Shown: positions 1,232-62,144 of the stretch, piece after piece | Position numbering within the stretch: the stretch's first letter is position 1 | How the letters are laid out: each line of letters starts with the position of its first letter | DNA from: Desulfuromonadales bacterium | Lineage (GTDB): Bacteria > Desulfobacterota > Desulfuromonadia > Desulfuromonadales > BM103 | Length of the DNA: 64,000 bases | Reading direction: 5' to 3' | Assembly (NCBI GenBank): GCA_014860225.1 | Contig: JACZKE010000035.1 | Span: 62,001-126,000 of the forward strand | The notes under the pieces: model-generated | Seen by the model: only the letters and a program-made list of their open reading frames with translations | Databases searched by the model: none | What the model was told of the DNA's origin: nothing | Position numbers and translations under genes: made by a program

Positions 1232-1283
1232 AGGCGCTTGCACGCACTTTACAAGTACCTGCTGCTATGTTAGGTAGTTTCCA

Positions 1284-1452
1284 TACGGAAACTCCGGACA
1301 ACACCGGCACAGTTTTCGATCTGGACACGAGCAATTTTTCGTAAGGTCAACGAAAACAAGGATTTGAGCGGAGGCGTAGTCCCTTACGCCGCACAATCAA
1401 ATCCGCCGATTGACGCAGAAATTGCGGAAAAGGGCCGTTTCAGGACGAAAAC
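1284..1452 (+). repeat. family-1 interspersed element, near-full copy upstream of dapA
   Basis: Core 1318-1441 matches 48607-48730; degenerate TIR gttttcgatctggacacg / cgtttcaggacgaaaac. Confidence 0.9.
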
Positions 1453-1501
1453 CAGGTAGGGTGCTTTACTAATCAAAGGATATTCAAGCAAGGAGAAGAT
1501 C

Positions 1502-2377
1502 ATGTTTAGAGGATCCATGGTAGCGATCGTCACCCCTTTCGACAGTCAGGGCAAGTTCGCCGAGGAGACCTATCGTCAGCTGATTGATTTCCAGATTGAG
1601 AACGGTACCGATGTCATTGTCCCTTGCGGCACGACCGGTGAATCGGCAACCCTCGATTTTGACGAGCACGAGTACGTCATCAAGGTCTGTATCGATCAGG
1701 TCAACAAGCGCATTCCGGTAATTGCCGGCACCGGCGCCAACAACACGGCCGAAGCGATCCATCTGTCGAAGAATGCCAAGGCCAACGGCGCTGACGGTCT
1801 GTTGCTGGTCTGTCCCTACTACAACAAGCCCTCTCAGGAAGGTATCTACCAACATTACAAAAAGCTCGCCGAGGAGGTCGCCCTCCCCCAGGTGCTCTAT
1901 AACGTGCCGGGCCGTACCGGCGTCAACGTAACCGCCGATACCACCATCCGCCTGGCCGAGTTTGCCAACATCGTGGCCATCAAGGAAGCTTCCGGCGACC
2001 TTACCCAGGTCAGCCAGATTCTGGCCAGGGCCGGCGACAAGATCGACGTCATCTCCGGAGACGACTTTTTGACTTTCCCGATGATGTGCTGCGGCGCCAA
2101 AGGGGTGATTTCGGTGTCCGCCAACGCTATTCCCAGACAGGTCAAGGACATGGTCGAGGCGGTTCAGAACGGTGACTACCTGGCGGGTCGTAAACTGCAC
2201 CTTGAATTACTTGAATTTCACACGGCCATGTTTATCGAATCGAACCCCGTACCGGTCAAAAAGACGCTGGAACTGATGGGCAAGATTGAAGCGCATGTCC
2301 GCCTGCCGCTGGTCGATATGAGTGATGCGACGCTTGAAAAGCTGAAGTCGGTTTTGCAGAGATATAAACTCATCTGA
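1502..2377 (+). CDS. dapA: 4-hydroxy-tetrahydrodipicolinate synthase
   Basis: MFRGSMVAIVTPF...CGTTGESATL...YNVPGRTG...IVAIKEASGD motifs; RBS aaggaga upstream. Confidence 0.97.
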   Translation: MFRGSMVAIVTPFDSQGKFAEETYRQLIDFQIENGTDVIVPCGTTGESATLDFDEHEYVIKVCIDQVNKRIPVIAGTGANNTAEAIHLSKNAKANGADGLLLVCPYYNKPSQEGIYQHYKKLAEEVALPQVLYNVPGRTGVNVTADTTIRLAEFANIVAIKEASGDLTQVSQILARAGDKIDVISGDDFLTFPMMCCGAKGVISVSANAIPRQVKDMVEAVQNGDYLAGRKLHLELLEFHTAMFIESNPVPVKKTLELMGKIEAHVRLPLVDMSDATLEKLKSVLQRYKLI

Positions 2378-12033: not shown

Positions 12034-12085
12034 TGCAAACCCCGGGTGGACACAATGCCGTTTTCAATTTGGAAACGTTTCTTTC
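12034..12085 (+). repeat. family-1 head-only relative
   Basis: atctgcaaaccccgggtggacacaatgccgttttcaatttggaaacg resembles 48571-48618. Confidence 0.55.
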
Positions 12086-12109
12086 CCACGATCTCTGCGT
12101 CAATCAGAA

Positions 12110-16221: not shown

Positions 16222-16290
16222 TGTAGCCTCACACCCTGCCCATTCAACAATTTTCGTCACCCGCCCTCCGCCATTTAGCGCCCATAAAAA

Positions 16291-16330
16291 ATTCAGGACA
16301 ACAAAAGCACAGTTTTCGATCCAAAAACCC
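16291..16330 (+). repeat. family-1 head fragment
   Basis: ttcaggacaacaaaagcacagttttcgatcca vs ctccggacaacaccggcacagttttcgatctg. Confidence 0.55.
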
Positions 16331-21179: not shown

Positions 21180-21228
21180 CTAGCAGCCGGTTCATGGATA
21201 GTCCGACAGGCTGCTAGAGAAGTTTTTT
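21180..21228 (+). terminator. intrinsic terminator formed by a family-2 repeat copy
   Basis: CTAGCAGCC...GGCTGCTAG stem with gaagttttttt tail; contains TCATGGATAGTCCGACAG. Confidence 0.85.
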
Positions 21229-37705: not shown

Positions 37706-37768
37706 CTGGAGTATTCCTTTTTGGACGTCATCTATGTCATGATAGAAGCAGTTTGATCCAGGAATCTA

Positions 37769-37814
37769 TCGGACTATCCATAACCCGGATTTGCAGCCGG
37801 CTCATGGATAGTCC
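37769..37814. repeat. family-2 repeat: CGGACTATCCAT...ATGGATAGTCCG inverted pair
   Basis: 12-bp perfect arms 37769-37780 / 37803-37814. Confidence 0.8.
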
Positions 37815-37896
37815 GACAGACTGCGAGGCAGTCATCAATTTCGAGACTACCCTTTTCCGCATGAACACCAGGCCATTATCCTGACACGAGATCGGC

Positions 37897-43459: not shown

Positions 43460-44194
43460 ATGAACAAAACTCAGAGAGTCCGATTTTTGAATCAACACGA
43501 TCAGTTTGAGAAATTCAGCCGTATGTGGCGAACACAATACTGTGCATCAGGCAAGACGATCTATTGCCGCGAAAACTGCGGCGGCTGCTGTCAACTGGCT
43601 GTGCATGCGACCTATCCTGAAGCCGTTGCTGTTGCAGAGGCCTTGACTGAATCACTGTCAAAGAGACTTTCAGGCTACATTGAACGCTTAAAAACCGCCC
43701 TGCCGGAATTGACCGATGTGAAGAGCTATCTCAAAGAACATCGCCAGGCAATCGGCCCTTGTCCGTTCCTGGACTCACGCGGATCTTGCTTGATTTACGC
43801 TATACGACCACTCTCTTGTCGAGCCTTGTTATCGACACGCCCGGCAGCGTGGTGTACAGTCGACTTTGCAAAACTGGACAACTGGGATAAGCAGGCCTAT
43901 GAAAGCGGCCTTGACCATCAGGTCGTTGCCTGGCCGACACATTATGTTGCTGCGACCCGGGACTTCGCGAGGACACTGGAAAAAACGCTGCTCGAATCGA
44001 TGCAGAGGGAACAGGGCTGGTCACTGTCAGGCAACTTTGCCGTAATGGTCTGGATTGAGAAGAACAACCGATTGGGCAGACGCAATAACGCAACGATACA
44101 ACAGGTTCGCGACATCCTGGCTGCCAGCGAACTCAACAACCCACTGCTGCTGAATTTCACCGACGGCAGCCAGAAGATGTCGGACTATCCATGA
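43460..44194 (+). CDS. YkgJ-family cysteine cluster protein
   Basis: IYCRENCGGCCQLAV...GPCPFLDSRGSCLIYAIRPLSCR; last codons overlap a family-2 repeat. Confidence 0.82.
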   Translation: MNKTQRVRFLNQHDQFEKFSRMWRTQYCASGKTIYCRENCGGCCQLAVHATYPEAVAVAEALTESLSKRLSGYIERLKTALPELTDVKSYLKEHRQAIGPCPFLDSRGSCLIYAIRPLSCRALLSTRPAAWCTVDFAKLDNWDKQAYESGLDHQVVAWPTHYVAATRDFARTLEKTLLESMQREQGWSLSGNFAVMVWIEKNNRLGRRNNATIQQVRDILAASELNNPLLLNFTDGSQKMSDYP

Positions 44195-44212
44195 ACAGGC
44201 TGCAAATTCAGC
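44172..44212 (+). repeat. family-2 repeat overlapping the 3' end of the YkgJ-family gene
   Basis: agaagatgtcggactatccatgaacaggctgc. Confidence 0.75.
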
Positions 44213-44304
44213 GGCTTGACCCGGATTGCAATTTTTCGCTTATGCCCGTATAGTCCGGCAACCTCCGCGAACGCAACGCTGGCAGAATAACTATCGAGGA
44301 AGAC

Positions 44305-45343: not shown

Positions 45344-45352
45344 TTCGTGCCC

Positions 45353-45415
45353 GTCCGAAAACTCCAGACAACACAGGCACAGTATTCATCCGGAAAAGGG
45401 TCGTTACCGGACATT
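45353..45415 (+). repeat. family-1 head-only relative
   Basis: ccgaaaactccagacaacacaggcacagtattcatccgga. Confidence 0.6.
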
Positions 45416-45510
45416 TCGTCATCTAAAGTTCTTCCCGGGAAAATGCAACCAGGCCCCAAACAGTTGACAGTGCCACGACGAGCAGGTAATACATGATGCA
45501 CTCGCAAAAC

Positions 45511-48505: not shown

Positions 48506-48570
48506 CAACGACCTCTGGACAGATGTGCCGCTCAAAGGATATCCTCCGACCATCGATCATTAGCCATTCC

Positions 48571-48742
48571 TGTCTGGAACCTCGGGATAGTACAAATGCC
48601 GTTTCCGATCTGGAAACGAACAATTTTTCGCAAGGTCAAGGAAATCAAGGGTTTGAGCGGAGGCGTAGTCCTTTACGTCGCACAATCAAATCCGCCGATT
48701 GACGCAGAGATTGCGGAAAAGGGCCGTTTCCAGATCGGAAAC
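48571..48742 (+). repeat. family-1 interspersed element, near-full copy
   Basis: Perfect 18-bp TIR gtttccgatctggaaacg (48601-48618) / cgtttccagatcggaaac (48725-48742); 124-nt core matches 1318-1441 with 9 mismatches by eye. Confidence 0.9.
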
Positions 48743-48759
48743 TAACTACGGAGGAAACA

Positions 48760-49518
48760 ATGTCGCAATCAAAATCGGCCAAACCGCAACACTCCTGTTC
48801 AAGTTGCAGTTCGATCTGGCAAAAACAAGGCACCACCAATTGTTGGAGCGCCCCGGACAGCAAACCCGCCAGACCAGTTTACTGCCCTTCAGAACCTTAT
48901 GCAGAGATAATTGACGATTCCTTTCTTCAGTACCAGGGAGACGATTCTGATGCCCGCCTGGCACGCGTTGCGGCCAAAGTCGAGGGGCTCTGCTACCAGC
49001 CGGTTCCCGGCTCAGACGCGGTCAACGCTCGCTGGACCCGGGTTGAAGACATGATTGCACTGGCACGGTTGATGGGCTACAAAAAGATCGGCATCGCCAC
49101 TTGTATTGGCCTGCTCGAGGAGTGCAGCCGATTGAGCGACATTCTGCGCGCGCAGGGGATGCAGCCTTTTTCAGCCTGTTGTAAAGCCGGCAGCATCGAC
49201 AAAATGGCGCTCAACCTGAAAGAAGAGGACAAGGTAAGGCCGGGCACTTTTGAGCCGGCTTGCAACCCGATCGCCCAGGCACGTATCCTGAATGCCGAAG
49301 GAATGGAGATGAATATCATTATGGGGTTGTGCGTTGGCCACGATATGCTCTTCAACAAATACTCAGAAGCGCCGGTCACCACGCTGGTAGTCAAGGACCG
49401 TGTCACCGGCCACAATCCGGCGGCCGTCCTGTACGGGCAGAATTTCTACTATAAACGCCTGCAGAAACAGCCGGTGATGAGCGATGATGAAGTTGTCGGG
49501 CATCAGGCTGATATTTAA
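48760..49518 (+). CDS. DUF1847 cysteine-rich metal-binding protein
   Basis: CSSCSSIWQKQGTTNCWSAP, KIGIATCIGLLEECSRLSDILRAQG, NIIMGLCVGHDMLFNKYSEAPVTTLVVKDRVTGHNP. Confidence 0.88.
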   Translation: MSQSKSAKPQHSCSSCSSIWQKQGTTNCWSAPDSKPARPVYCPSEPYAEIIDDSFLQYQGDDSDARLARVAAKVEGLCYQPVPGSDAVNARWTRVEDMIALARLMGYKKIGIATCIGLLEECSRLSDILRAQGMQPFSACCKAGSIDKMALNLKEEDKVRPGTFEPACNPIAQARILNAEGMEMNIIMGLCVGHDMLFNKYSEAPVTTLVVKDRVTGHNPAAVLYGQNFYYKRLQKQPVMSDDEVVGHQADI

Positions 49519-58181: not shown

Positions 58182-58222
58182 ACGCCGGATTTACAGCCAA
58201 CTCATGGATAGTCGGACATGTT
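58182..58222 (-). repeat. family-2 repeat after rsmE
   Basis: gccggatttacagccaactcatggatagtcggacatg. Confidence 0.65.
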
Positions 58223-58520
58223 CCCGGATACATCTCTGGTATGACGAAATCTTCACCATCCCCCCGGGAAGACCGTGAAAACCTTCGTTAAAACGAAAAA
58301 TTAATCAAAAATAATTTCTAATCGGCAAAAAATAAGGATTAGACATCAGCGGTTTGTACCTGTAAGCCATTACAATAATTTACTTTTACTAATTCTAATC
58401 CTGTAATTAAACAAGATTAAATTATTTTTTTCTAACTGGACTGCCTCTCCGCAAACAGGGAAAATAGATTCAACATCATCGTATAATTGAGAACAATCGC
58501 ACCTGACTCGGGAGATCAAC

Positions 58521-60205: not shown

Positions 60206-60243
60206 TTTAGCAGCCTGTCGGTCTATCAATGAACAGGCTGCCT
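60206..60243. repeat. family-2 repeat as hairpin GCAGCCTGT...ACAGGCTGC
   Basis: agcagcctgtcggtctatcaatgaacaggctgcc between the Rrf2 gene and cysK. Confidence 0.75.
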
Positions 60244-62075: not shown

Positions 62076-62144
62076 CTGGCAGCCTGTCCGACGATACGGG
62101 CCGAAGCGAAAATCCGGCTCATGGATAGTCCGATAGATTGCCAG
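62076..62144. repeat. family-2 repeat pair after larE
   Basis: ctggcagcctgtccgacgatacg...ccggctcatggatagtccgatagattgccag. Confidence 0.7.

Follow-up and report, generated by a model that had tools for sequence, protein, structure and literature searches.

A class-wide MITE with a covarying fold at a promoter-like dapA site, and its likely ISNCY-type transposase

What is the structured repeat that fills the gap before dapA in this window, the whole 64,000-nt stretch analysed here: a piece of mobile DNA, an RNA element of the gene behind it, or both? A sequence-only reading had left it as either MITE-like or a cis-regulatory RNA, and the observations behind that choice were reproduced. Its ungapped alignment of 1318-1441 with 48607-48730 contains exactly the 9 mismatches in 124 nt that had been counted by eye, and our repeat search pairs 1287-1441 with 48576-48730 at 86%. 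The hairpin GGCGTA...TACGCC is present, as is its TACGTC variant that retains a G-U pair, and each near-full copy closely precedes a plus-strand gene in the same orientation: dapA, starting at 1502, and a DUF1847 gene, starting at 48760. In the second copy the right end comes 7 nt ahead of a sequence resembling a ribosome-binding site (GGAGGA) and 17 nt ahead of the DUF1847 ATG. Coordinates are collected in Table 1.

Table 1. Copies, parts and neighbours of the element, and sites of a second repeat family, in the window.
Feature	Position	Strand	Evidence or remark
Promoter-like -35 of dapA, TTTACA, remaining on the upstream side of the insertion	1248-1253	+	motif match
Left target duplication TAGGTA	1271-1276	+	empty versus filled site; coincides with the promoter-like -10, 17 nt after TTTACA
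Full element, copy 1 (176 bp)	1277-1452	+	
Left end: inverted repeat GTTTCCATACGGAAACTCC, remains of small 5' hairpin, linker	1277-1311	+	alignment of the genome's own copies
Core: nested helices (model R1), right inverted repeat GTTTCAGGACGAAAAC at its end	1312-1452	+	151.7 bits to R1; alignment, pair counts
Right target duplication CAGGTA, 1 base off TAGGTA	1453-1458	+	
dapA (DHDPS family)	1502-2377	+	PF00701, E 9.5e-98; 49 nt downstream of the element
Fragment, right part of core	12061-12107	-	
Decayed left-end fragment	16267-16327	+	repeat search (family D3)
Short related element without core: left end and decayed right end	45347-45416	+	left end, 1 mismatch at 45347
Copy 2, core	48601-48742	+	left hairpin degenerate, about 48564-48600
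Second-family sites	21183-21218, 37757-37827, 44173-44213, 58183-58227, 60208-60241, 62110-62144		

The assembly that holds the window (3.94 Mb, 68 contigs) was searched with the core of copy 2 as a BLAST query, giving 42 matches, and with a covariance model, giving 95; at least 6 of the latter are the opposite strand of a place already counted, which leaves about 89 distinct places. The two window copies are therefore not special, and the family reaches far beyond the pair first noticed. Several contigs stop inside a copy, since a repeat is expected to break assemblies.

An alignment of 31 copies with their flanks defined the anatomy of the element. It starts with G[TG]NNCCATCCGGAAACTCC, and a short linker connects this end to the core, GTTTTCGATCTGGAAACGAGCAATTTTTCGC...GCGGAAAAGGGCCGTTTCCGGACGAAAAC, so that about 35 bp of left end and linker precede the core. 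The terminal inverted repeats GTTTCCATCCGGAAAC and GTTTTCGTCCGGAAAC are identical at 10 of their first 12 positions, and motif searches placed the left end at 127 sites and the right end at 103 (reversed control patterns, 0). The left part folds in relatives into a neat small hairpin, such as GTGTCCATCCGG-AAACT-CCGGATGGACAC, and the large nested hairpin comes after it; the small 5' hairpin is intact in relatives such as those at L118, L160 and L175. Pairs of left and right ends mostly span 175 bp, and forms of about 29, 50, 57 and 71 bp also occur. Very short forms (about 29-50 bp) were seen in L035, L036, L044, L047 and L055, some with 6-7-bp duplications, which suggests from sequence that the two ends alone may be able to move. 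One stretch of 1 kb (L120 5150-6120, G000:C63) carries three shortened forms, including versions of about 95 bp without the mid-core. A coding remnant was considered, given a frame that stays open in 30 of 45 sequences, and rejected: the core has no codon periodicity (phase diversity 0.223/0.243/0.247 for the three phases) and indels break the frame.

The insertion upstream of dapA can be compared with an empty site. Locus L264, in a genome of the same taxonomic family, reads CTATGTTAGGTAGGTGCATTA, where the window reads CTATGTTAGGTA-element-CAGGTAGGGTGCTTTA. Copy 1 is thus 176 bp long, 1277-1452, inside a 6-bp target duplication; of the extent first proposed, 1284-1452, the right end stands, and the left end moves out to 1277 on the evidence of the duplication and the L264 site. 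Among 91 copies, the 6 bases before the left end and the 6 after the right end are identical in 37, compared with 1.5% when flanks were re-paired randomly, and the mean identity of these target flanks is 0.72 versus 0.486 +/- 0.015. The duplication length is exactly 6 bp, with no other length found, and target sites such as TAGTTA, TAAATA and TAGCTA resemble TANNTA. Together with insertion sequences of the order that bear the same ends (below), the inverted repeats, the duplications and the empty site strongly support the earlier MITE-like label, and it is near certain that the element is a non-autonomous transposon (MITE).

A candidate for the enzyme that moves it came from looking for ISNCY-type transposases, a choice guided by duplication lengths. 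The first such insertion sequence found has ends GTGTCCGTCCATAAAC and encodes a protein matching Pfam DDE_Tnp_1. Relatives of this transposase occur in 12 of 136 genomes of the order, and many of the corresponding insertion sequences have GTGTCCATCCGGAAAC-type ends 1.66-1.69 kb apart, flanked by 6-bp duplications such as TAGTTA, TAACTA, TACCTA, TAGGTA and TAATTA; two look like 7. One of these insertion sequences, L220, comes from G009, a genome belonging to the same genus that has at least 22 copies of the element; a protein search of the present assembly found no ISNCY-type transposase of this kind. The ISNCY-family insertion sequences (NCBIfam NF033593) of Desulfuromonadales thus have the ends GTGTCCATCCGGAAAC and the TANNTA-like 6-bp duplications in common with the element, but differ from it in being 1.66-1.69 kb long, carrying a transposase gene and having no core inside. 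Searching them for the core returned one match only, an adjacent separate copy in L219. Because ends, duplication length and target are shared, the ISNCY-type enzyme is the best transposase candidate, and judging from these sequences it very likely moves the element. The DDE transposase would recognise GTGTCCATCCGGAAAC-type ends, insert at TANNTA-like sites and leave the 6-bp duplication, mobilising the element in trans. The three PF01609 transposases of this genome were rejected, as their borders lack these ends, and so was a left-right end pair 3.1 kb apart on contig C51, which has no transposase between. At L208 in genome G007, a further transposase locus is bounded by other ends (GTGCCCGTCCGA...) and perhaps by a CTAG duplication.

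The element was found by BLAST in 31 of 58 relatives, and the covariance model matched 95 of 146 sampled genomes of the class, covering 45 of 59 genera, with at least 22 copies in many genomes. Core identity across the order is 73-96%. Copies in genomes that belong to the class but not to the order, taken to be Geobacterales, share the left hairpin and are flanked by the duplications TAGCTA, TAAATA and TAGTTA. Genome G024 is presumably P. carbinolicus, and G161, which also has a duplicated phosphate operon with an insert of about 235 bp, we take to be G. uraniireducens. No plasmid or phage carrying the element was matched by blastn. The only matches to an exact 47-mer were in a MAG from Desulfuromonadales and in a single contig, L093, of another MAG that is labelled Halomonas; that contig, which has a perfect core and a TAGCTC duplication, is probably mis-binned.

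To examine the fold, 45 diverse cores (core length 140 nt) were aligned and analysed with RNAalifold, which gave 41 pairs, 22 of them with compensatory changes on both sides, a strong covariation signal. Alignment cells at paired positions are paired in 95.0% of cases, versus 84.5% in shuffles, which ignore relatedness, and at most 52% when slid, a control that retains it; the covariation score is 0.334 versus 0.153 in shuffles (0/500). Singly, copy 2 folds at -69.5 kcal/mol (z -8.3, 0/200 shuffles) and copy 1 has a z of -4.7. The plus strand is the more stable in 43 of the 45 sequences, by a mean of 11.4 kcal/mol, and G-U outnumbers A-C by 91:28 in mostly Watson-Crick pairs, a ratio partly biased by RNAalifold favouring G-U on the given strand. 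The earlier hint of RNA-level structure, drawn from a single G-U pair, is supported by class-wide covariation, the G-U versus A-C asymmetry and the better folding of one strand. The one-strand bias suggests a constraint at the level of RNA (or of single-strand DNA), and selection on the single-strand fold is likely; the 140-nt core would be maintained as a folded single strand, the plus strand as written. A search of Rfam gave no match, neither at the gathering threshold nor with E values allowed up to 5, and a riboswitch or other catalogued RNA was rejected on this result.

The fold could also belong to an ordinary MITE, as a by-product of palindromic ends and recent spread with no RNA function, which we regard as a real possibility that falls short of being probable. 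The inverted repeats and duplications are clear, and the genomic context described below fits a TANNTA preference, which overlaps stop codons and -10 boxes, combined with purging from genes. MITEs usually shed internal identity fast. Against this reading stand the conservation of the core across the order, its occurrence across the class with heavy compensatory change, the strand asymmetry, and nine copies beside dapL, dapB and nifK, perhaps old residents, that keep structure and covariation. On function, the main alternative to RNA is that the fold is kept as single-stranded DNA for transposition, which we think unlikely: hairpins in a DNA strand would give the same one-strand bias, but target duplications and a DDE-type enzyme are signs of cut and paste on double-stranded DNA, and core-only copies keep the fold. 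That the core fold acts as an RNA structure in leader, intergenic or 3'-end RNA of neighbouring genes is, for us, about an even call.

The position of copies relative to genes was next considered. Genes were called with a home-made hexamer score, and the counts are approximate and the copies non-independent. For 103 copies without an overlapping ORF call, the arrangement is tandem antisense in 55, tandem sense in 20, convergent in 18 and divergent in 10. No more than 8 nt separate the right end from the stop codon of a gene on the opposite strand in 59 of 115 cases, and the left end abuts a sense stop in 12. The idea that the copies are 5'UTR elements in general is contradicted by the excess of tandem antisense over sense copies, the commonest contact being the 3' end of an opposite-strand gene, and no general bias to gene starts appears in these counts; the same excess weighs against a simple sense-UTR role. 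Since the target TA followed by the G of the element reads TAG, insertion at TAG or TAA stops would leave a stop codon in place.

The dapA copy is a more favourable case. A pattern TT[TG]AC[ATC]-N14/15-TG[TC]TA, drawn up after the sequences were seen, occurs upstream of dapA in 23 of 29 loci (this one included), compared with 0.04 expected from mononucleotide shuffles. In the window the motif reads TTTACA-17-TAGGTA, a pair that a generic promoter scan did not list. As TAGGTA is the duplicated target, a -35/-10 pair survives the insertion on its upstream side, and the element comes to lie in sense at the expected transcript start. The 5'UTR reading, which fails as a general rule, is thus plausible for this copy, whose insertion site coincides with the conserved promoter-like -10. 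The element would have inserted in sense into that site, the duplicated TAGGTA preserving the presumed -10, and transcription would start just inside it, so that the folded RNA would form the 5' end of the dapA mRNA. On these motifs the window copy probably begins the dapA leader, and an RNA role at dapA is plausible.

Copies also occur near other metabolic genes. In six Desulfuromonadales genomes (G016, G012, G115, G045, G025 and G094), the interval from dapB to dapL holds a divergent core-only copy, in sense and immediately ahead of the ribosome-binding site of dapL; antisense copies occupy the same interval in four class genomes outside the order (L300, L301, L304 and L346), and the majority of the remaining intervals of this kind examined across the class have no copy. 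The order in L264, L262, L268, L271, L273 and L195 is mostly dapB, a terminator-like hairpin, a divergent core copy and the dapL ribosome-binding site. Copies adjoin nifK in two families, where they are antisense. The nine copies by dapL, dapB and nifK retain the fold with covariation in an alignment that was fitted to the model; they may be old residents, and the sequences at dapL are at most suggestive of orthologous copies. A wider proposal, which we hold only tentatively and think somewhat unlikely, is that of a portable regulatory RNA on ISNCY-type ends, its fold selected class-wide, landing at promoters and gene ends and repeatedly adopted as a part of the mRNA by metabolic genes, among them dapA in this genome and dapL and nif in others.

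The reverse order of events, an ancestral cis-regulatory RNA such as a dapL leader that was captured by insertion-sequence ends and then spread, appears doubtful. The sense core-only copies before the dapL ribosome-binding site agree with it, as does Aklujkar 2009 (PMC2700814), which places the element between dapAB and dapL and also 5' of lysine/arginine genes; the scarcity of the element in the other dapB-dapL regions and the antisense copies there and at nifK argue against it.

A second repeat family, TAGCAGCCTGTCGGACTAT...ATAGTCCGACAGGCTGCTA, has a full form of about 190 bp and occurs in the window (Table 1) and also inside or against first-family copies (L054, L065, L082, L086 and L090). 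At about 928-1933 of L097 (the end of G000:C63), there is a RAYT-like Y1 transposase gene (322 aa) whose start is 16 nt away from a family-2 palindrome, and this second family might be the REP of that RAYT. For the first family, spread as REP-type palindromes by a RAYT (Y1) transposase is most improbable: minimal hairpin forms of about 29 bp occur and RAYT-like genes are present, but the element makes 6-bp duplications, and at the 7 Y1 transposase loci checked the gene borders carry no matching palindromes or ends.

Taken as a whole, we consider it probable that the repeat is a class-wide MITE, moved in trans by an ISNCY-family DDE transposase, with a core kept as a folded strand and a copy inserted at the promoter-like site of dapA. 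A MITE with a class-wide compensatory fold and up to about 90 copies per genome offers a system in which to ask if mobile DNA spreads working RNA, and the insertion in the dapA promoter region is a concrete, testable case. The 'short RNA elements' of Geobacter, which had lacked an explanation, are further linked to a transposon by these results.

Aklujkar 2009 (PMC2700814) described the core in Geobacter metallireducens under the name 'predicted short RNA elements', 24 copies with a central palindrome GRCGTAGCGCTGCTACGCC, one of them between dapAB and dapL (Gmet_R1005 = GSU0160.1). That palindrome is the exact reverse complement of the central hairpin GGCGTAGCAGCGCTACG(C/T)C in L193, L262, L268 and L271, and the dapB-dapL location is the same as that of copies found here; the loop of the window copies (GGCGTAGTCCCTTACGCC) differs from it. 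The passages of its main text used here give no terminal repeats, duplications, transposase or covariation, and we found no earlier literature report of the element's mobility. Another MITE from this bacterial class is Chunjie of Geobacter uraniireducens Rf4, 178-235 bp long (PMC10969869). It was rejected as a relative: its insert, recovered as the stretch of about 235 bp by which two duplicated phosphate operons differ, ends in CAGCGTTGTCCGGTTTGG and shows no visible resemblance to the element. YPAL/RU-2 was likewise set aside, being without terminal repeats and having duplications of 3-26 bp (PMC2229807), in contrast to the inverted repeats and 6-bp duplications here. Linking a MITE to an insertion sequence through the ends and target they have in common has a counterpart in RUP of Streptococcus pneumoniae with IS630-Spn1; RUP differs in its TA target and was reported without a further structure or function signature (PMC2229807). 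NEMIS differs in its repeats and in the TA motif at its ends, but Correia/NEMIS and YPAL/RU-2 are, like the present element, small mobile sequences with RNA folds, and they can affect neighbouring mRNA (PMC2229807).
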